A DNA stretch of 25,920 nt from NCBI GenBank assembly GCA_024281135.1, contig JAMXLG010000403.1, forward strand, positions 1 to 25,920. Reading direction: 5' to 3'. A program made the position numbers and the translations under genes. Of this stretch, positions 5,991-18,016 are shown piece by piece. Numbering within the stretch: the first letter of the stretch is position 1; each line of letters opens with the position of its first letter. The notes under the pieces were generated by a model, which worked only from the letters and a program-made list of their open reading frames with translations, did not search any database and was not told where the DNA came from. The DNA comes from Vulcanimicrobiia bacterium (lineage in GTDB: Bacteria > Eremiobacterota > Eremiobacteria > Baltobacterales > Baltobacteraceae).

Positions 5991-7250
5991 ATGCTGATCC
6001 GAGGCGGGCGGATTGTGGATCCGTCGGGGCCGCTGGATGCTTTGCGCGATCTGCGGATTGAAAATGGTGTCGTCGTAGAGATCGGCGATCATCTTGTGGC
6101 GCGCGACGGCGAGGATGTCATCGACGCGACGAACGCGATCGTAGCACCGGGGTTTATCGACATGCACGTCCATCTGCGCGAGCCGGGCAATCCGGAAAAA
6201 GAGACCATTGCGACCGGCACGCTCGCAGCCGCTCGCGGCGGCTTTACTGCCGTCGCGTGCATGCCGAACACAAACCCGGCGCTCGACGATCCTTCCGTGT
6301 TGGCGGATCTTGCAAGTCGCGTAGGGCGCGACGCAGTCGTGCGCGTGTATCCGATCGGCGCAATTACGCGAGGACGCAAAGGCGAGACGCACGTCGATTT
6401 CGCCGCGCTCGCGCGCGCGGCTGCGGTCGGCTTCTCGGACGACGGAAACACGGTGATGAATGCGAGGGTGCTTCGCGATGCGGCACTCGCCGCACGCGAC
6501 GTTCCGGGCGTCTTTATTTCACACGCCGAAGACGAGCATCTCAAAGGGAACGCGGTGATGAACGAGGGCGCCGTTTCGCGCGCGCTCGGCGTCGTCGGGA
6601 GCCCCGCCGTTGCCGAAGATATCATCGTCGCGCGCGACCTTCTGATCGGTGCTGAGACGGGTAAAGCATGGCACATTGCGCATCTCTCTACGCGCGGCGC
6701 GCTCGAAGCACTCTTACACGCTCGTGCGCACGGAGGCCGCGCCACGTCGGAGGTAACGCCGCACCATCTGCTGCTTACCGATGAGGCGATACGCGAAGTC
6801 GGCCCAAAGGGAAAAGTCAATCCGCCGTTGCGTACGGAAGGCGACGCGCGCGTATTGCGCGACGCGGTGCGCGAAGGAACGATCGAGGTCTTTGCTACGG
6901 ATCATGCACCGCATACCGAAGCTGAAAAGTCGGGTGATTTGCAGCACGCGGCCGTGGGTTTTACCGGACTCGAAGTCGCCGTCGGCGCGTACGCGCGCGC
7001 GGTGCCGGACATACCGATGCTGCGGTTTGTCGAGTTGCTTTCCACGAATCCGGCGCGGATTCTCGGCGTTGCGGGCGGGACGCTTGCAATTGGATCGACT
7101 GCGGACGTGACGATTTTCGCCGAACGTCCGTGGCGCGTGGATCCGTCAGAGTTCGCATCAAAAGGGAAAGCTACGCCCTTTGCAGGTTGGGAACTGCCGC
7201 GTCGCGCGATTGCCGCGATCGTCGGTGGCCGCCCGGCCTTTACTTTGTAG
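5991..7250 (+). CDS. pyrC: dihydroorotase, type I (zinc metallo-amidohydrolase)
   Basis: The 419-residue protein closes carbamoyl aspartate to dihydroorotate, step 3 of pyrimidine synthesis. It has the amidohydrolase layout: a small N-terminal beta part, then a TIM barrel with DMHVHLREPG (metal ligands H59 and H61, substrate Arg63), FSDDGN (Asp150/151, metal-bridging position of type I enzymes), TPHHLLL and ATDHAPH (Asp304, catalytic base position). The C-terminus returns to the beta subdomain with GTLAIGSTADVTIF. Length (about 420-430) and the HLREPG signature place it in type I rather than the shorter E. coli type II. The last 11 bases overlap the convergent methyltransferase gene tail to tail. 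Confidence 0.97.
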   Translation: MLIRGGRIVDPSGPLDALRDLRIENGVVVEIGDHLVARDGEDVIDATNAIVAPGFIDMHVHLREPGNPEKETIATGTLAAARGGFTAVACMPNTNPALDDPSVLADLASRVGRDAVVRVYPIGAITRGRKGETHVDFAALARAAAVGFSDDGNTVMNARVLRDAALAARDVPGVFISHAEDEHLKGNAVMNEGAVSRALGVVGSPAVAEDIIVARDLLIGAETGKAWHIAHLSTRGALEALLHARAHGGRATSEVTPHHLLLTDEAIREVGPKGKVNPPLRTEGDARVLRDAVREGTIEVFATDHAPHTEAEKSGDLQHAAVGFTGLEVAVGAYARAVPDIPMLRFVELLSTNPARILGVAGGTLAIGSTADVTIFAERPWRVDPSEFASKGKATPFAGWELPRRAIAAIVGGRPAFTL

Positions 7251-7923
7251 CAACGCCGTAGACGATGTAGCGCCATGACGGCGGCACGAGCGCGTTGAGT
7301 CCCGCGCGATCGATTGCTGCGAGCATGCGCCGTTGCGCCTCGGAACGCCCGAAGGTTCCGAGCACACCGGCCGTCGAGCTTTTGACATCGGAGAACTCCC
7401 GCAAAAACGCGCGCATTTCGTCGATCGTCACGTAGCGCCAGTTCGTTCCCCACTCCACGAATCGCGAGCGAAGGAACTGATGCATGCGCGACCCGACGAG
7501 ATTTTCTGCGAAGAGAAGCCGGCCGTCGGGACGCAGCGCGCGATGCATCGATCCAATCGCCCGGCGTTGATATTCGATCGCGTTGTTCCGCCCTACCCCG
7601 CCCAGCACCGACTTGAATACGATGATATCGAAGCGATTTTCATACGGAATCGCCGTCGCGTCGATATTTTCAAACGCGACCCGGTCGAGCAAACCGTGAC
7701 GTTCGACGAGTGGCCGTGCCGTCGCTTCGCAATTCGCAAGATCCGAGCACAGCACGCGGTGCCCGCGCGAAGCGAGCCACACCGAGAGGCCGCCTTGATT
7801 GGCGCCGATTTCGAGGCAGTCGAGTGGCGCACCGTCAAGGCCGCCGTAGCGCACCCAAAAATCGAGCGCGACCCCCCAACTACCGGTATCCCACTTCAAA
7901 ACGTCAGTCGTCGTGAGACTCAC
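7240..7923 (-). CDS. class I SAM-dependent methyltransferase
   Basis: The 227-residue protein has a Rossmann methyltransferase core. Motif I is LEIGANQGGLSVWLA (residues 37-51), the acidic residue ending strand 2 is Asp61 (CSDLA), and FDIIVFKSVLGG matches the motif IV region. ALRPDGRLLFAEN is the post-motif strand seen in small-molecule methyltransferases. The start is GTG at 7923; an ATG one base further up is out of frame. No Shine-Dalgarno is seen. Instead a GTTAGG-13-GGGTAG promoter-like pair ends 9 bases before the start. The gene lies 51 bases downstream of the MarC gene on the same strand and overlaps pyrC by 11 bases at its 3' end. The substrate cannot be told from sequence. Confidence 0.85.
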   Translation of the reverse strand: MSLTTTDVLKWDTGSWGVALDFWVRYGGLDGAPLDCLEIGANQGGLSVWLASRGHRVLCSDLANCEATARPLVERHGLLDRVAFENIDATAIPYENRFDIIVFKSVLGGVGRNNAIEYQRRAIGSMHRALRPDGRLLFAENLVGSRMHQFLRSRFVEWGTNWRYVTIDEMRAFLREFSDVKSSTAGVLGTFGRSEAQRRMLAAIDRAGLNALVPPSWRYIVYGVATK

Positions 7924-7932
7924 ATAACAATG

Positions 7933-7957
7933 CTACCCCTTGCTTTGTGTCCCTAAC
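7933..7957 (-). promoter_or_regulatory. SigB/SigF-like promoter before the methyltransferase
   Basis: On the minus strand, GTTAGG (7957-7952) is separated by 13 bases from GGGTAG (7938-7933). Exactly 9 bases follow before the GTG start at 7923. The pair resembles SigB/SigF-family promoters (GTTT and GGGWA cores). Two similar pairs with the same 9-base gap occur at 13834-13858 and 14073-14098. It would give a near-leaderless transcript, which fits the lack of a Shine-Dalgarno. Confidence 0.45.
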
Positions 7958-7974
7958 CGAATTGGAAAACGGTA

Positions 7975-12288: not shown

Positions 12289-13199
12289 GCTTCGATCATC
12301 CGGCGTATCTGTTTCCGGCGCTCTTTATCGCGATAGCGATTGTGGCGCTGGTGCTCGCGGGACAACGGCGCATGACCGCGCGCGATCTCGTCTATTCAAA
12401 CGTCGCATTCTTGAACGATGCGATCGCACCGCGCCGGTGGATCGGCAGAGCCTTTAATACGACGTGGATCGCTGCGCTCGCACTTGGCGCGCTCGCCGTT
12501 GCAGGGCTTCACGTGCGCATACCGCTTCCGGCACGCGACGGTTCGGTGTTCATTTGCATTGATACATCGGGTTCAATGGGATCTACCGACGTTCAACCGA
12601 CGCGCTCGGCTGCGGCAAAGGCTGCAGCAGCGGCGTTCATTGATGCTTCGCCGCCGGGGACGCGCGTCGGTGTCATCGCCTTCTCGAGCGGCGCGGCAAT
12701 CATCTCGCCACTTTTATCCGATCATGAAGCCGTGAAATCCGCGCTCGATCAGGTTCCGAGTCCCAATGGTGCGACGGCGATCGGCGACGCGTTGCAACTC
12801 GCCGCCCAAAATTTTCCGCCCACCGGACACCGCGTCGTCATTCTGATCACCGACGGCGTGAATAACGCGGGCGTCGATCCGCAAGAGCTGGCGTCGTACC
12901 TCGGCGCGCATCACATTCCGGTGTATACGATCGGGATCGGGACGCCGAACGGCGATATCATCGGCGGCGAACAGTCGACGATCGATGAAGACGCACTGCG
13001 TTCCTATGCCGACGCGAGCGGGGGCGCATACGCGCGCGTCGAGAACGCGTCGCAGTTGCGTAGCGCACTAGCCCACCTGGGCGGTGTGACGATGCTCGAG
13101 AAACGCGAGGTGGCTGCGTCGCTGCCGCTGGCGTTTGCAGCTGCGGGATTATTGATGCTGACGCTCGTCACCGGTTTTGCAACGGGGAGAATACCGTGA
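12285..13199 (+). CDS. membrane-anchored VWA-domain protein, BatA-like
   Basis: The 304-residue protein has the BatA/BatB architecture. Two N-terminal hydrophobic helices (about 7-25 and 60-77) are followed by a VWA domain and a C-terminal membrane helix (about 283-301). The MIDAS is complete: DTSGS (Asp93), the Thr of GATAIGDAL, and the Asp of LITDGVNNAG. The opening MSFDHPAYLF matches the family's typical 'F-x-P-x-x-L' start. It should be held in the membrane with the VWA domain free to bind MoxR or envelope partners. The ATG overlaps the DUF58 stop. Its stop is shared with the pdxH start (GTGA), so a cofactor enzyme is coupled to this operon. Confidence 0.9.
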   Translation: MSFDHPAYLFPALFIAIAIVALVLAGQRRMTARDLVYSNVAFLNDAIAPRRWIGRAFNTTWIAALALGALAVAGLHVRIPLPARDGSVFICIDTSGSMGSTDVQPTRSAAAKAAAAAFIDASPPGTRVGVIAFSSGAAIISPLLSDHEAVKSALDQVPSPNGATAIGDALQLAAQNFPPTGHRVVILITDGVNNAGVDPQELASYLGAHHIPVYTIGIGTPNGDIIGGEQSTIDEDALRSYADASGGAYARVENASQLRSALAHLGGVTMLEKREVAASLPLAFAAAGLLMLTLVTGFATGRIP

Positions 13200-13834
13200 A
13201 CTTGGAATCCAGCCGCGCGCGATACGGCAGTGGTCAGCTACTCGAATCGACGGCTCAACACGATCCGGTCGAACAGCTGCGCGAGTGGCTCGAGCTTGCG
13301 TATGCAACACCCGAAATCGTTGAAGCAAATGCGATGTGCGTTGCAACTGCAGGGCGCGACGGTACGGTGTCGGCGCGCATGGTGCTCTTGCGCGGACTCG
13401 ACGAACGCGGCCTCGTGTTTTTTACGTCATACGGCAGCCGCAAGGGGCAACAAATCGCTGAAAATCCGCGCGCTGCGGCGACGTTCTATTGGGCGCCGAT
13501 CCATCGGCAAATACGCGTGGAGGGGACGGTAGCGCAACTGCCCGAGGATGAATCGGATGCCTATTTTGCAACGCGTCCGCGCGGTCATCAGCTCTCGGCA
13601 TGGGCGTCGGAACAAACCGAACCGGTCGAAGGCCGCGAAGTGCTCGACGAACGTCTTAAACATTTCGAAGAGCGTTTCGAAGGTGACGAAGTACCGCGAC
13701 CGCACTCCTGGGGCGGCTACCTGATCGCGCCGGATCGATTCGAATTCTGGCAGGGCCGCGAAAATCGCATGCACGACCGCTTGGAGTACGTGCGCGCAGG
13801 ACGCGCGTGGACGATCCGGCGATTACAGCCGTAG
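13196..13834 (+). CDS. pdxH: pyridoxamine/pyridoxine 5'-phosphate oxidase
   Basis: The 212-residue FMN enzyme oxidises PNP or PMP to pyridoxal 5'-phosphate, the last step of the DXP-dependent B6 route and of salvage. Signature segments are ARMVLLRGLDERG, FFTSYGSRKG, the FMN/dimer strand RQIRVEG, RPRGHQLSAWAS, and the C-terminal block FEFWQGRENRMHDR. Length is typical. The start is GTG in a GTGA overlap with the VWA gene, with a strong GGGGAGA ribosome site (13184-13190) 5 bases upstream. No other B6 gene is nearby. It ends the carA-to-pdxH chain; a promoter-like element begins at the last base of its stop codon. Confidence 0.95.
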   Translation: MNLESSRARYGSGQLLESTAQHDPVEQLREWLELAYATPEIVEANAMCVATAGRDGTVSARMVLLRGLDERGLVFFTSYGSRKGQQIAENPRAAATFYWAPIHRQIRVEGTVAQLPEDESDAYFATRPRGHQLSAWASEQTEPVEGREVLDERLKHFEERFEGDEVPRPHSWGGYLIAPDRFEFWQGRENRMHDRLEYVRAGRAWTIRRLQP

Positions 13835-13858
13835 TTAGGCCTCCCTTAAAACGGGAAC
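13834..13858 (+). promoter_or_regulatory. SigB/SigF-like promoter before the small unknown gene
   Basis: GTTAGG (13834-13839), 13 bases, GGGAAC (13853-13858), then 9 bases to the ATG at 13868. The -35-like hexamer and the 13-base spacer are identical to the minus-strand site at 7933-7957. The first G is the last base of the pdxH stop codon. There is no Shine-Dalgarno before the ATG, as expected for a near-leaderless message. Confidence 0.4.
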
Positions 13859-13872
13859 GCTCTTAAAATGGG
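13845..13872 (+). repeat. tandem-spaced 11-base direct repeat over the start of the small gene
   Basis: CTTAAAACGGG (13845-13855) and CTTAAAATGGG (13862-13872) match in 10 of 11 bases. Their starts are 17 bases apart. They flank and overlap the proposed -10 element and the ATG at 13868. They are AT-rich against a GC-rich background. A regulator binding two turns of helix or a chance duplication would both explain them. Confidence 0.5.
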
Positions 13873-14068
13873 CGAGCATAGGCGCGATCGCAAGGGCGAG
13901 ATTTTTCAAGACAACATGACCGAGAACCAAGGTGCGACTCCGCCGGCGCGCGAGCAAGCATCCCATCACTTGCGTCCGGACGGCGACATCAACTCGCAAG
14001 AAGCCGACGAGATGAATCGTGAGTTCGCGGAACGTTTGAAGAAGAGCGGGCACTCGTCAGGCCACTAA
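13868..14068 (+). CDS. small hydrophilic protein of unknown function
   Basis: The frame encodes 66 residues; an internal ATG at 13916 (residue 17) would give 50. The product is polar and charged, with no membrane helix, cysteine or recognisable domain. It has a basic N-terminus, a His pair, a short acidic/basic helix (SQEADEMNREFAERLKK) and a Gly/Ser/His tail, so it is probably largely disordered. I do not recognise it. Support for a real gene comes from its own promoter-like element, the clean intergenic position between pdxH and the RsbV-like gene, and the lack of a better frame. The shared promoter type suggests a stress-induced small protein, which is inference. Confidence 0.5.
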   Translation: MGEHRRDRKGEIFQDNMTENQGATPPAREQASHHLRPDGDINSQEADEMNREFAERLKKSGHSSGH

Positions 14069-14072
14069 TTCC

Positions 14073-14098
14073 GTTTGCGGCACGTTTGAGCCGGGTAC
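14073..14098 (+). promoter_or_regulatory. SigB/SigF-like promoter before the RsbV-like gene
   Basis: GTTTGC (14073-14078), 14 bases, GGGTAC (14093-14098), then 9 bases to the ATG at 14108. The cores GTTT and GGGTA match what is known of SigB (Bacillus) and SigF (mycobacteria) promoters, and the 16 bases between GTTT and GGGTA fit the SigF spacing. It stands in front of an anti-sigma antagonist gene, the classical place for SigB autoregulation. No Shine-Dalgarno is visible. Confidence 0.55.
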
Positions 14099-14107
14099 GC
14101 CCGAGAC

Positions 14108-14425
14108 ATGGAAAGCTACGATCAAGCGGGACCAAGCTTGACGATCGAATGCCAGGACGGCACAACGAACGTACTACTGGCCGGTGAATGGGATCTCTGC
14201 GAAGCGCCGCAATTGCGCGAAGCGCTCGACGGCATCAATGCCTCGCAACACGTGCTCTTCGATCTCGCCGGCGTCACCTATCTCGATTCATCCACGCTGC
14301 GTGTCTTCGCCGAATTCAAACAACGATCGAAGAGCCTCGGCGGAAGCACAGCGATCCACTATGGCGGCAACGAGCGCGCCCGCAAGCTCATGAGTCTCGC
14401 GGGAGTCGCAACGCTGTTGCATTAG
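14108..14425 (+). CDS. STAS-domain anti-sigma factor antagonist (RsbV/SpoIIAA-like)
   Basis: The 105-residue protein is a single STAS domain. NVLLAGEWDLCEAPQLREAL is the second strand and helix, and VTYLDSSTLRVF holds the switch region with Asp60-Ser61-Ser62. The second serine aligns with the one phosphorylated in SpoIIAA. In its dephosphorylated form such a protein captures its partner anti-sigma kinase and frees a sigma factor. The partner is very likely the HATPase gene 26 bases downstream. No sigma gene follows, so the sigma factor must be encoded elsewhere. The promoter-like element just upstream suggests positive feedback. Which sigma it serves cannot be seen. Confidence 0.85.
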   Translation: MESYDQAGPSLTIECQDGTTNVLLAGEWDLCEAPQLREALDGINASQHVLFDLAGVTYLDSSTLRVFAEFKQRSKSLGGSTAIHYGGNERARKLMSLAGVATLLH

Positions 14426-14451
14426 TCGATTGCTCCCGCGCGGCAGCGGGT

Positions 14452-14859
14452 ATGCGGGTGTACATGTGGCATCTCCACGCAGACAATCCCGAAGATGCTC
14501 TACGGCAACGATCCCGGTTCTTGGCCGCACTTGCGAGCGAAAGCGGTGACCCCGGGTTCGACCGGTTTGCTGCGCAACTCATATACACGGAGCTGATCGG
14601 GAACGTGATGCGCCACGCGCGCGGTCCAGTCGACATTCAGTTGCGATGCGTCGACGGCAAGGCGCTGCTGCACGTCTTCGATCGCGGCGACGGATTCGTG
14701 TTCGAACCGACGTTGCCGGAGGCGCCGCTGCAAGAAAGCGGTCGCGGTCTTTTCCTCGTGAGCCGGTTTGCGGAACGGGTCAACGTGCACACGCTAGGCG
14801 GACACGGCACCTGCGTAAGCGCGGTTTTTGAGGTTGGAAGGCACGGTCGCGTAACGTAG
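14452..14859 (+). CDS. RsbW-like anti-sigma factor / serine kinase (HATPase)
   Basis: The 135-residue product is a small GHKL ATPase of the RsbW/SpoIIAB type. The N box is ELIGNVMRHA (Glu47, Asn51), the G1 box DRGDGF (77-82), and the G2 box GRGLFLVSRF (97-106). There is no phosphoacceptor His domain. Such proteins bind a sigma factor or phosphorylate the STAS antagonist on serine. I chose the ATG at 14452; GTG 14458 and ATG 14464 are alternatives. The frame stays open upstream, but that part overlaps the STAS gene. The gene follows the STAS gene by 26 bases and ends 19 bases before carB. The E-L-x-x-N N-box and G boxes look functional. Confidence 0.83.
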   Translation: MRVYMWHLHADNPEDALRQRSRFLAALASESGDPGFDRFAAQLIYTELIGNVMRHARGPVDIQLRCVDGKALLHVFDRGDGFVFEPTLPEAPLQESGRGLFLVSRFAERVNVHTLGGHGTCVSAVFEVGRHGRVT

Positions 14860-14878
14860 CCAATCCACCCTCCCCAGC

Positions 14879-17800
14879 ATGCCCCGCCGCAATATCATGG
14901 TCATCGGCTCGGGACCGATCATTATCGGTCAGGCCGCCGAATTTGACTACGCGGGCGTTCAGGCGTGCCGCGCCCTGCGCGAGGAAGGCCATCGCGTCAT
15001 CCTCGTCAATTCGAATCCCGCTACAATCATGACCGACCCAGAGGTGGCCGATGCCGTCTACCTCGAGCCTCTCACGGTTGCTTCGGTCGAGCAAATCATT
15101 GCGCGCGAGCGCCCGGATGCGCTCTTACCGACGCTCGGCGGACAGACCGGATTGAATCTCGCAGTCGAACTCGACGACGCCGGCGTTTTAACGCGCCACT
15201 GCGTCGAGCTGCTCGGTACACCGGTCGATACGATTAAACTCGCAGAAGACCGCGAACGCTTCAAAGAAAAAATGCTCGAGATCGGCGAGCCCGTCGCCGA
15301 GAGCGAGATCGTCACTTCCGTCGAGCAAGGTGTCGGCTTTGCAGAGCGCACTGGATTTCCGCTCGTCGTGCGACCCGCATATACGCTCGGTGGTACGGGT
15401 GGCGGCGTGGTGTACAACGAGGAGGAACTGCGCGAGCGACTCGATGCGGGACTCAATGCGTCGCTGATTCATCAAGCGCTGCTCGAAACGTCGCTCCTCG
15501 GCTGGAAAGAGATCGAGTACGAAGTGCTGCGCGACGGTGCGGACAATTGCATCATCGTTTGCAACATGGAGAACATCGACCCCGTCGGGGTGCATACGGG
15601 CGATTCGATCGTTGTTGCACCGTCGCAGACCCTCACCGACGTCGAGTACCAGATGCTGCGCACTGCGTCGCTGAATGTTATTCGCGCGCTCAACGTGCAG
15701 GGCGGCTGCAATATCCAATTCGCGCTGCACCCGACAAGCAACGAGTACGCGATCATCGAAGTGAACCCGCGCGTGTCGCGGAGTTCGGCGCTCGCATCCA
15801 AAGCCACGGGCTATCCGATCGCAAAAATCTCGACGCGCATCGCGCTCGGACAAACGCTCGATCAGATTCCCAATCCGGTTACCGGCGTGACGAAGGCCGC
15901 GTACGAGCCGACGCTCGATTATTGCATCGTCAAGATTCCGCGCTGGCCATTTGATAAATTCCCGCTCGCCGACACGCTGCTCGGTACGCAAATGAAGTCG
16001 ACCGGCGAAGCAATGGGCATCGGGCGCACGTTCCGATCGGCGTTGATGAAAGCCGTGCGCGGACTCGATCTAAAACGCGAGCGCCTCACGGGCGGCGAGT
16101 ACACCGAGTGGAGCATTGCTGAACTCGAAGAGATCGTCACCAAACCGACCGACGAGCGTCTCTTCGCCGTCGCGGAATTGCTGCGCCGCGCGCGCGTCCT
16201 TCGACAGGCTCAGGATGACACGGTCGCGGTTGATGCCGCGATCGAACGCATCCATGCGCTCTCCGCCATCGATCGCTTTTGGTTGTACGAAATCGCCGAG
16301 ATCGTCGCGGCGGAAGAAACGGGAGCACCGATCGAAGCGGGCGACGCGTCGTTCCGCATGGTCGATACCGCCGCGGCCGAGTTTCCCGCGCAATCCCCGT
16401 ATTACTATCTTTCGCATGGCGAGATGGACGAGATCCGGCGCAGTCCGAACGAAGCGGTGGTCGTCGTGGGTAGCGGACCAATTCGTATCGGTCAAGGTAT
16501 CGAATTCGATTACAGCTGCGTGCACGCCGCATGGGCGCTGCGCGACGCCGGAAAATCACCGGTCGTCATCAACAATAATCCGGAGACCGTCTCGACGGAC
16601 TTCGATATCTCCGACGTGCTCGTCTTTGAACCGCCGGGGCCGGACGAAGTCGAAGCAACCTTTCGCGGCACCAATGCGACCGGCGTGATGCTCACGTTCG
16701 GCGGCCAGACGGCGATCAATCTCGCCGGCGAGCTCTCGCGGCGGAACGTTCGCATCATCGGAAGCGACCGCGCAAGCCTCGACATGGCCGAAGACCGCGC
16801 GCAGTTCGATGCTGCGTTGCAGCGTTTGGGCGTCGCACGGCCGCAAGGACGCGCAGCTACGAGCTTCCGTGAAGCGCGTGTCTTTGCGCGCGAACTCGGA
16901 TTCCCCGTGCTCGTACGCCCGAGCTTCGTGTTGGGTGGCCGCGCGATGGAAATCATTTATAACGAAGGCCAGCTTGCGTCGTACGCTGAGTCCGCGCCGC
17001 CGATTCTTCCCGGCGCTCCGCTGCTCGTCGATAAGTATCTGCGCGGCTTGGAAGTCGAGGTCGACGCTGTTTTCGACGGCGACGACAGCCTCATTCCCGG
17101 TATCTTCGAGCATATCGAACGCGCCGGCATCCATTCAGGCGATTCGATCAGCGTGTATCCGACGCAGACGATCGACGAGGCGATGACGAAGCGCATCGTC
17201 GACGTTACGACAGCGATTGCCTCGGAACTGCGAATTCGCGGACTGATCAACATTCAGTTCGTCGTGCACGAAGGCGACCTGTACATCATCGAAGCGAATC
17301 CGCGCGCGAGCCGCACGGTACCGATCATCCAGAAGGCGACCGGAGTAAATATGGTCGCTGCCGCAACGCGCATTGCACTGGGCGAAAAACTGCGCGACAT
17401 GGAGTACGGAACGGGCTTGCATCCGCGTACGCCGTACGTTGTCGTCAAAGTGCCGGTGTTCTCGTTCTCGAAGATGCGCGGCGTCGAGACAATTCTCGGC
17501 CCCGAAATGAAATCGACCGGTGAGGTGCTCGGCATCGACGACACCTTCGCAGGTGCGCTACGCAAGGGATTCATCGGTGCGGGCGTTCGCCTACCGGGAA
17601 GCGGTGGCCGGATTCTCGTCTCGATTGCGGATGAAGAGAAGCACGCAGCGTTGCCGATTCTAAGCCGCTACGCGGATTTGGGTCACACGCTCGTCGCAAC
17701 GCCCGGCACGCGCGCCGTGCTGGAACATGCCGGCATTCCGTGCGAACCGATCAACAAAATCTCCGATGCTTCGCCGCACGTCCTCGACGTGATTCATCAA

Positions 17801-18016
17801 CGCAAAGTCGATCTGGTGATCAACGATGCGAAGGGGCCGCGCGAAATCTCCGACGGCTATCGCATTCGCCGTGCCGCAGTAGAGAGCGGCATCGCGTGTC
17901 TCACTTCGCTCGATACGGCCAAAGCGCTCGTCACCGCGCTCGAAACCGTGCCGGGACCGCCTCGATCGCTGCAGGAGTACCGTGCCGCCGCGGGCGCCCG
18001 CGCACCCGTATCTTAG
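14879..18016 (+). CDS. carB: carbamoyl-phosphate synthase large subunit, with a short in-frame insertion
   Basis: The 1045-residue subunit makes carbamoyl phosphate from bicarbonate, ammonia from CarA and two ATP. Its domains are: first ATP-grasp half (1-~395, starting GSGPIIIGQAAEFDY), oligomerisation domain (~396-520), second half (from ~523, GSGPIRIGQGIEFDYSC), and the MGS-like allosteric domain (~908-1020) that binds UMP or ornithine in relatives. In the oligomerisation domain, between LLRRA and IHALSAIDRF, there are 19 residues where E. coli CarB, recalled from memory, has about 5. The extra part includes VLRQAQDDT, encoded by a short repeat sequence (see 16196-16222). No Shine-Dalgarno precedes the ATG. 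The stop codon lies inside a palindrome that leads into the next gene. The catalytic motifs are otherwise intact. Confidence 0.96.
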   Translation: MPRRNIMVIGSGPIIIGQAAEFDYAGVQACRALREEGHRVILVNSNPATIMTDPEVADAVYLEPLTVASVEQIIARERPDALLPTLGGQTGLNLAVELDDAGVLTRHCVELLGTPVDTIKLAEDRERFKEKMLEIGEPVAESEIVTSVEQGVGFAERTGFPLVVRPAYTLGGTGGGVVYNEEELRERLDAGLNASLIHQALLETSLLGWKEIEYEVLRDGADNCIIVCNMENIDPVGVHTGDSIVVAPSQTLTDVEYQMLRTASLNVIRALNVQGGCNIQFALHPTSNEYAIIEVNPRVSRSSALASKATGYPIAKISTRIALGQTLDQIPNPVTGVTKAAYEPTLDYCIVKIPRWPFDKFPLADTLLGTQMKSTGEAMGIGRTFRSALMKAVRGLDLKRERLTGGEYTEWSIAELEEIVTKPTDERLFAVAELLRRARVLRQAQDDTVAVDAAIERIHALSAIDRFWLYEIAEIVAAEETGAPIEAGDASFRMVDTAAAEFPAQSPYYYLSHGEMDEIRRSPNEAVVVVGSGPIRIGQGIEFDYSCVHAAWALRDAGKSPVVINNNPETVSTDFDISDVLVFEPPGPDEVEATFRGTNATGVMLTFGGQTAINLAGELSRRNVRIIGSDRASLDMAEDRAQFDAALQRLGVARPQGRAATSFREARVFARELGFPVLVRPSFVLGGRAMEIIYNEGQLASYAESAPPILPGAPLLVDKYLRGLEVEVDAVFDGDDSLIPGIFEHIERAGIHSGDSISVYPTQTIDEAMTKRIVDVTTAIASELRIRGLINIQFVVHEGDLYIIEANPRASRTVPIIQKATGVNMVAAATRIALGEKLRDMEYGTGLHPRTPYVVVKVPVFSFSKMRGVETILGPEMKSTGEVLGIDDTFAGALRKGFIGAGVRLPGSGGRILVSIADEEKHAALPILSRYADLGHTLVATPGTRAVLEHAGIPCEPINKISDASPHVLDVIHQRKVDLVINDAKGPREISDGYRIRRAAVESGIACLTSLDTAKALVTALETVPGPPRSLQEYRAAAGARAPVS
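16196..16222 (+). repeat. short dispersed-repeat-like sequence read in frame within carB
   Basis: The sequence from 16199 to 16218 reads CTTCGACAGGCTCAGGATGA. In its six frames this element gives peptides such as LRQAQDD, FDRLRMT, SLSKDA and HPEPVEG. I remember these as recurrent in spurious proteins of many bacterial genomes, a sign of a widespread interspersed repeat. Here it encodes residues 440-448 of CarB without breaking the frame, at a place of extra length. Only one copy is in the window, so its repeat status rests on memory. Confidence 0.6.

Follow-up and report, generated by a model that had tools for sequence, protein, structure and literature searches.

In Bacillus subtilis, promoters of the sigma factor SigB follow the consensus GTTTAA-N12-14-GGGWAW, as quoted in PMC8346170, and those of mycobacterial SigF the consensus GGWWT-N16-17-GGGTAY (PMC7693655). 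The Streptomyces coelicolor promoter SCO3557p, mapped by S1 nuclease, is read by six SigB homologues, and Table 2 of the same source prints nine bases after its -10 element (PMC8346170). In Mycobacterium smegmatis, RsbW1, encoded beside the sigma gene, is the anti-sigma factor, and RsbW2 phosphorylates RsfB without binding SigF (PMC7693655). Leaderless transcripts make up 24% of the transcripts of the same organism (PMC6448022). For the Eremiobacterota, a search of an open-access library yielded no publication dealing with sigma factors, with RsbW or with genes lacking a leader.

The window analysed here is a stretch of 25,920 nucleotides from a member of that phylum. Its plus strand carries a predicted SigB/SigF-type promoter at 14073..14098, consisting of a -35 element GTTT(GC) at 14073-14078 and a -10 element GGGTA(C) at 14093-14098. 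The spacer from GTTTGC to GGGTAC is 14 bases long; written with the shorter boxes, the same site is GTTT-N16-GGGTA (14073-14097), i.e., a GTTT-like -35 and a GGGWA -10 with 15-17 bases between them, which places it in this class. Nine bases (14099..14107) lead from the -10 hexamer to the ATG (14108-14110) of a gene for a STAS-domain protein, so that the start codon follows ten bases after GGGTA, and none of AGGA, GGAG or GAGG stands directly 5' of it as a Shine-Dalgarno element. The preceding gene stops at 14066-14068, 39 bases ahead of this ATG. The motif and its distance to the ATG, as given in the initial annotation, proved exact. The hexamers and their spacing, GTTTGC-N14-GGGTAC, are identical to those of SCO3557p in Table 2 of PMC8346170, although that promoter was S1-mapped and the one in the window is only predicted. 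Compared with M. smegmatis SigF promoters (PMC7693655), the window has CGTTT instead of GGWWT, its site is near-leaderless, and the roles of the gene pair behind it are predicted.

The boxes by themselves are unremarkable. Across 200 dinucleotide shuffles of the window, GTTT-N15-17-GGGWA averaged 0.39 occurrences at any position (one found in the window). With one mismatch allowed at the N16 spacing, five matches were present against 4.93 expected, which is chance level. In the 3.3-Mb genome of a relative (G001), the bare N16 motif, counted regardless of placement, gave 20 exact matches vs. 19 for the reversed pattern, and this count was dropped as evidence. Taken together, the shuffles and the G001 counts mean that the boxes alone have no weight and that it is the position before a start codon that counts. 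The initial annotation had estimated a chance match at about 1 in 90,000 per position, a figure that does not matter here, since the motif shows no enrichment on its own. When an ATG was required 10-12 bases downstream, the single match in the window compared with an expectation of 0.015. From the sequence, only the placement of the motif appears unusual, and the comparison with relatives makes the promoter more credible. A sigma-70 promoter scan of 13700-15000 gave one promoter-like site on the minus strand (14949-14921), and a terminator scan of the same interval gave one terminator-like site vs. 1.3 expected; neither has a bearing on the site at 14073.

The STAS gene lies within a row of five plus-strand genes separated, after correction of the starts, by gaps of 33, 39, 38 and 19 bases: a pdxH-like gene (13196..13834), a gene for a hydrophilic protein of 66 aa (13868..14068), the STAS gene for an anti-sigma antagonist-like protein of 105 aa (14108..14425), a HATPase_c_2 gene for a predicted RsbW/SpoIIAB-like kinase of 131 aa (14464..14859) and carB (14879..18016). 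The start of the small gene at ATG 13868 agrees with all nine homologues found, each of 66 aa, and a copy in the relative G061 is 67% identical over its length; no Pfam family matched this protein over the cut-off. The STAS start at 14108 is supported by 14 of 21 homologues of exactly 105 aa. The HATPase start was moved from 14452 to 14464, since the corresponding gene of another relative (L001) has no ATG at the place of 14452 and aligns from 14464, and the G061 copy does likewise. A row of same-strand genes with gaps of 19-39 bases favors another explanation, by which the boxes arose by chance, transcription reaches the STAS gene from pdxH or from some other promoter upstream, and translation proceeds without a Shine-Dalgarno element. 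Contrary to the initial annotation, a promoter is therefore not strictly needed in the 39-base gap. Read-through also agrees with the lack of enrichment of the motif alone and with the one-mismatch matches being at chance level, while the expectation of 0.015 placed sites per shuffled window argues against it.

A scan of genome contigs returned five loci, one of which is the same locus, in the Candidatus Eremiobacterota MAG contig JAFANA010000133.1 (L001). Here the STAS protein is 81% identical, the 66-aa gene is deleted, and the two boxes GTTT and GGGTA, the 16 bases between them and the ten-base distance to the ATG are all kept. Across 35 aligned columns there are six mismatches and none in the nine box columns, which for a single relative is a weak footprint (P 0.14) and can be accommodated by read-through. 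In G061, pdxH, the 66-aa gene and the HATPase gene are present, the last directly following the 66-aa gene with no STAS gene between them. At E 1e-10, STAS orthologues were detected in only one of the 103 genomes of the order of L001, and therefore this locus offers no deeper footprint. A possible second promoter of the same type precedes the HATPase gene at 14428..14452 (+): GATT-N16-GGGTA, with the ATG 11 bases on and GATT differing from GTTT by one mismatch. Its comparison with L001 gave 12 mismatches in 36 columns, all of them outside the nine columns of the boxes (P 0.014). Another possible site, GTTA-N15-GGGAA at 13834..13857 (+), lies ten bases ahead of the ATG of the 66-aa gene; its GGGAA is kept in L001 and G061, the -35 is not kept in G061. 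Thus, the 66-aa, STAS and HATPase genes each have, in succession, a GGGWA 10-11 bases before the ATG, which speaks against chance boxes. HATPase relatives matched in 85 of the 103 genomes at E 1e-4, most of the listed matches being long frames of other architectures. Thirty loci were fetched and eight with short frames were read; two of the seven other short HATPase-gene loci (L039, L041) have GTTT-N15/17-GGGAA 9-10 bases before the ATG.

Enrichment of the motif before start codons, proposed in the initial annotation as a check, was found in the relatives. In the 103 genomes, GTTT-N15-17-GGGTA-N6-12-ATG had 228 matches vs. 99 for the reversed pattern, and a change of the spacing to N20-22 gave 106 (125 reversed). 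Per genome, the motif outnumbered the reversed control in 61, fell below it in 21 and equaled it in 21. The promoter geometry is widespread in the order: at gaps of 10-11 bases there were 140 matches vs. 41 reversed, present in 73 of the 103 genomes and amounting to about 1.4 perfect sites per genome. Among the 143 distinct sequences listed, gap 10 was the commonest (65, with 21 at gap 11). Since the controls are biased the same way, albeit more weakly (gap 10-11 accounts for 41 of the 99 reversed matches and for 27 of the 66 sequences with wrong spacing, compared with 140 of 228 for the motif), the gap bias is partly non-specific, and part of the GGGTA-N10-ATG bias may be a coding-phase artifact. 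A frame of at least 45 aa starts at the ATG in 24 of 30 motif matches vs. 1039 of 2151 ATGs overall in the same loci. Five of the six matches without such a frame are one recurring segment (GTTTTC...GCAATG) and probably not promoters; segments of this kind inflate the counts of 228 and 140.

Within 1.2 Mb of three relatives (G061, G047, G015), GGGTA alone occurred nine times at 10 or 11 bases before the ATG of a called gene, whereas the other gaps between 0 and 60 mostly had 0-2 occurrences, with a maximum of four at gap 35. The same 1.2 Mb contained no full GTTT/GGGWA site 9-12 bases before a called-gene ATG, so perfect two-box sites are sparse; the three full sites found came from G001 stretches that had been chosen around motif matches. 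Among the nine STAS_2 genes of G001, only two have a GGGWA box 6-15 bases before the start. Among the products of genes behind gap-10/11 sites are a hemerythrin-domain protein (L111), a glyoxalase-domain protein (L108), copper-amine-oxidase-N-domain proteins (L105 and relatives) and an MFS protein (L109). Separately, in both G001 and G061 (L124, L162), GGGTA lies 13 bases ahead of the ATG of a gene that was identified by eye as Ku-like.

A protein family reached through the motif (L121 and its orthologues; L121, L123, L220-L230 and other loci within L222-L251) provided a footprint. Searched as a protein, this secreted-looking family without a Pfam match was found in 53 of the 103 genomes, and 30 loci were fetched. 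GGGWA stands 8-13 bases before the candidate start in 15 of the 30, 11 of them with GTTT at N15-17. Within 150 bases upstream, the two-box motif occurs in 18 of 30 loci in the sense direction and in none in antisense, with six wrong spacings pooled giving 4 of 30. After removal of the eight loci of the close clade that supplied the query, the respective values were 10, 0 and 4 of 22. Eight of these ten loci have the motif 50-83 bases ahead of the aligned region, five of the eight with a Shine-Dalgarno-like stretch near the start. Some members of the family thus have the motif directly at the ATG and others 50-83 bases ahead, so that the promoter appears to be kept while its distance to the start changes. 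The earlier assignment of the window site to the SigB/SigF type is thus supported in its type by enrichment before ATG and by footprints, both in relatives, and the interpretation built on it is supported in part.

As judged from the geometry, transcription beginning 9-10 bases downstream of the hexamer would give a leader of only about 0-1 base. If the last base printed for SCO3557p is its start, the first transcribed base in the window would be the A of the ATG or the one immediately preceding it. Leaderless genes seem to be usual in this order beyond the SigB type. In stretches of G001, G061, G047 and G015, TANNNT boxes peaked at 6, 7 and 9 bases before the ATG (22, 19 and 21, vs. about 4-15 at most other gaps), and only 17-24% of the genes called in the sampled relatives had a Shine-Dalgarno-like 4-mer at -16 to -5, the control stretch giving 5-10%. 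Both observations suggest that leaderless genes are common here. The likeness to mycobacterial leaderless transcription lies in a promoter directly before the ATG and the lack of a Shine-Dalgarno element; the difference is that the -10 in the window is SigB-type, and the available text of PMC6448022 does not describe SigF promoters as a leaderless class. That many genes of the relatives have no Shine-Dalgarno-like 4-mer also fits read-through. Against this stand the enrichment of the gap-10 geometry across the order and the succession of three window genes with GGGWA 10-11 bases before the ATG, and we regard chance boxes with read-through as unlikely.

The initial annotation placed the cognate sigma factor elsewhere in the genome, and a group-3 SigB/F/G sigma factor is indeed encoded in the relatives; the genome of the window presumably has one too. 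Such a protein is over the curated cut-off in G001 and in 96 of the 103 genomes, and the seven genomes without one had 10 motif matches vs. 6 in the control, too few to judge. In the genome of L001, it is encoded in a ytxH-like/rsbV/rsbW/sigB operon. One sigma factor from a relative (L006) scored 284.8 bits against TIGR02980 (cut-off 234.35) and remained below the SigB equivalog cut-off (215.3 of 315). All 31 sigma loci that were read have rsbW next to sigB; 29 have rsbV, the remaining two ending at a contig edge, and 25 have a ytxH-like gene, whose product is below its Pfam cut-off (24.9 of 37.5 bits). In 10 of these 31 loci, GTTT-N15/16-GGGAA is located 30-46 bases ahead of the ytxH-like gene; in 21 it is absent there. 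Over the 1560 bases ahead of the sigma gene, a looser motif had 15 matches in sense and 2 in antisense, and its wrong-spacing control had 0. At L006, the conservation of the site may be partly coding because the site sits in the end of the upstream reading frame.

The STAS protein matched PF01740 with 39.1 bits (cut-off 22.6) and PF13466 with 38 (29.2); against the NCBIfam antagonist model TIGR00377 it stayed below the cut-off (42.6 vs. 53.45 bits) and is hence called antagonist-like only. Its best relatives of solved structure are RsbV (6m36, E 9.4e-5) and SpoIIAA (1th8). A serine follows the aspartate of the DS motif (DSS at residues 60-62, YLDSSTL aligned to RsbV YMDSTGL), and this serine we take to be the one phosphorylated in RsbV-type antagonists. 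The second protein matched HATPase_c_2 with 51.1 bits and has the residues of the N, G1 and G2 boxes; the Bergerat-motif residues E43, N47, D73, G75, G93, G95 and G115 are invariant in eight aligned sequences. It had no match to the NCBIfam RsbW/SpoIIAB models at E 1e-5, its sole NCBIfam match being a weak one to the RsbA family (45.2 bits, cut-off 210), and a sequence search against solved structures gave nothing at E 0.01. B. subtilis SigB/RsbV/RsbW is similar in promoter class (consensus in PMC8346170), in the match of the STAS protein to RsbV and in the rsbV-rsbW-sigB order of the relatives; it differs in that the window pair has no adjacent sigma gene, reads DSST instead of DSTG and has both proteins below the curated cut-offs.

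The pair is 28% (to RsbV) and 27% (to RsbW) identical to the proteins of the sigma operon in relatives, and because that operon has its own, divergent RsbV and RsbW, the window pair is an additional one. It resembles rsfB-rsbW2 of M. smegmatis, in which an antagonist gene is followed by a gene for an RsbW homologue away from the sigma gene (PMC7693655). Since rsfB/rsbW2 form such a pair, we prefer to read the window proteins as an antagonist with an antagonist kinase over an antagonist with an anti-sigma factor. Under a further alternative, the promoter is SigB-type and the HATPase is the anti-sigma factor of another sigma factor or acts on a non-sigma partner, with no feedback loop on SigB. 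The low identities to the cognate-operon RsbW and RsbV, the RsbA family as the only weak NCBIfam match and the many pairings possible among the nine STAS_2 proteins and five HATPase matches of G001 are in its favor. However, the two proteins belong to the SigB/SigF partner-switch type, the promoter falls in the class read by such sigma factors, and M. smegmatis RsbW2, divergent and non-sigma-binding, still acts in the same circuit (PMC7693655), so that a different target seems quite improbable. Reading of the site by a different sigma factor sharing a GGGTA-like -10 is very improbable: although G001 has seven matches to TIGR02980 with one over the cut-off (284.9 bits) and at least three further sigma-70-like proteins at 136-146 bits, GTTT with GGGWA is the recorded SigB/SigF signature (PMC8346170, PMC7693655) and such a motif precedes the sigB operon in the 10 of 31 loci mentioned.

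The reading that we favor, and consider probable, combines a SigB-type promoter, a near-leaderless STAS message and an orphan partner-switch pair with feedback on SigB. The site at 14073-14098 would be a SigB/SigF-class promoter read by a SigB/F/G sigma factor from an rsbV-rsbW-sigB operon elsewhere. The STAS transcript would start at the ATG or within a base or two of it, giving leaderless or near-leaderless translation. The HATPase would phosphorylate the STAS protein on the serine of the DSS motif, and, when not phosphorylated, the STAS protein would relieve inhibition by an anti-sigma factor, for which RsbW of the sigma operon is the simplest candidate. Under sigma control and autoregulated in this way, the pair would tune the gain of the stress response through feedback, in the manner of RsfB/RsbW2 with SigF in M. 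smegmatis.

Extended to the phylum, a much more tentative proposal, which we hold to be rather unlikely as a whole, is that an Eremiobacterota SigB regulon has its promoter at a near-fixed GGGTA-N10-ATG and so produces leaderless stress messages without Shine-Dalgarno elements, with the orphan RsbV/RsbW-like pair as feedback and with members of one family passing between leaderless and leadered modes. If true, the range of SigB-type regulons, which have been worked out in detail for Firmicutes and Actinobacteria, would extend to a phylum with few cultured members, and a sequence rule would be at hand for finding its members. Moreover, orthologous genes that share this stress promoter and differ in whether they have a leader would form a natural set for a direct test of how leaderless translation acts under stress.

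Across the whole window, GGGWA was found at six places 9-13 bases ahead of a start codon (ATG or GTG) that opens a frame of 60 codons or more. They belong to the 66-aa, STAS and HATPase genes, a PilZ gene, a methyltransferase gene and one minus-strand frame. The last lies opposite a pyrB-like coding sequence and is probably not a gene. The PilZ gene has its GGGWA at gap 12, without GTTT. On the minus strand, a candidate SigB-type site, GGTT-N16-GGGTA, is located at 7934-7958, ten bases before the GTG of the methyltransferase-like gene at 7240-7923.
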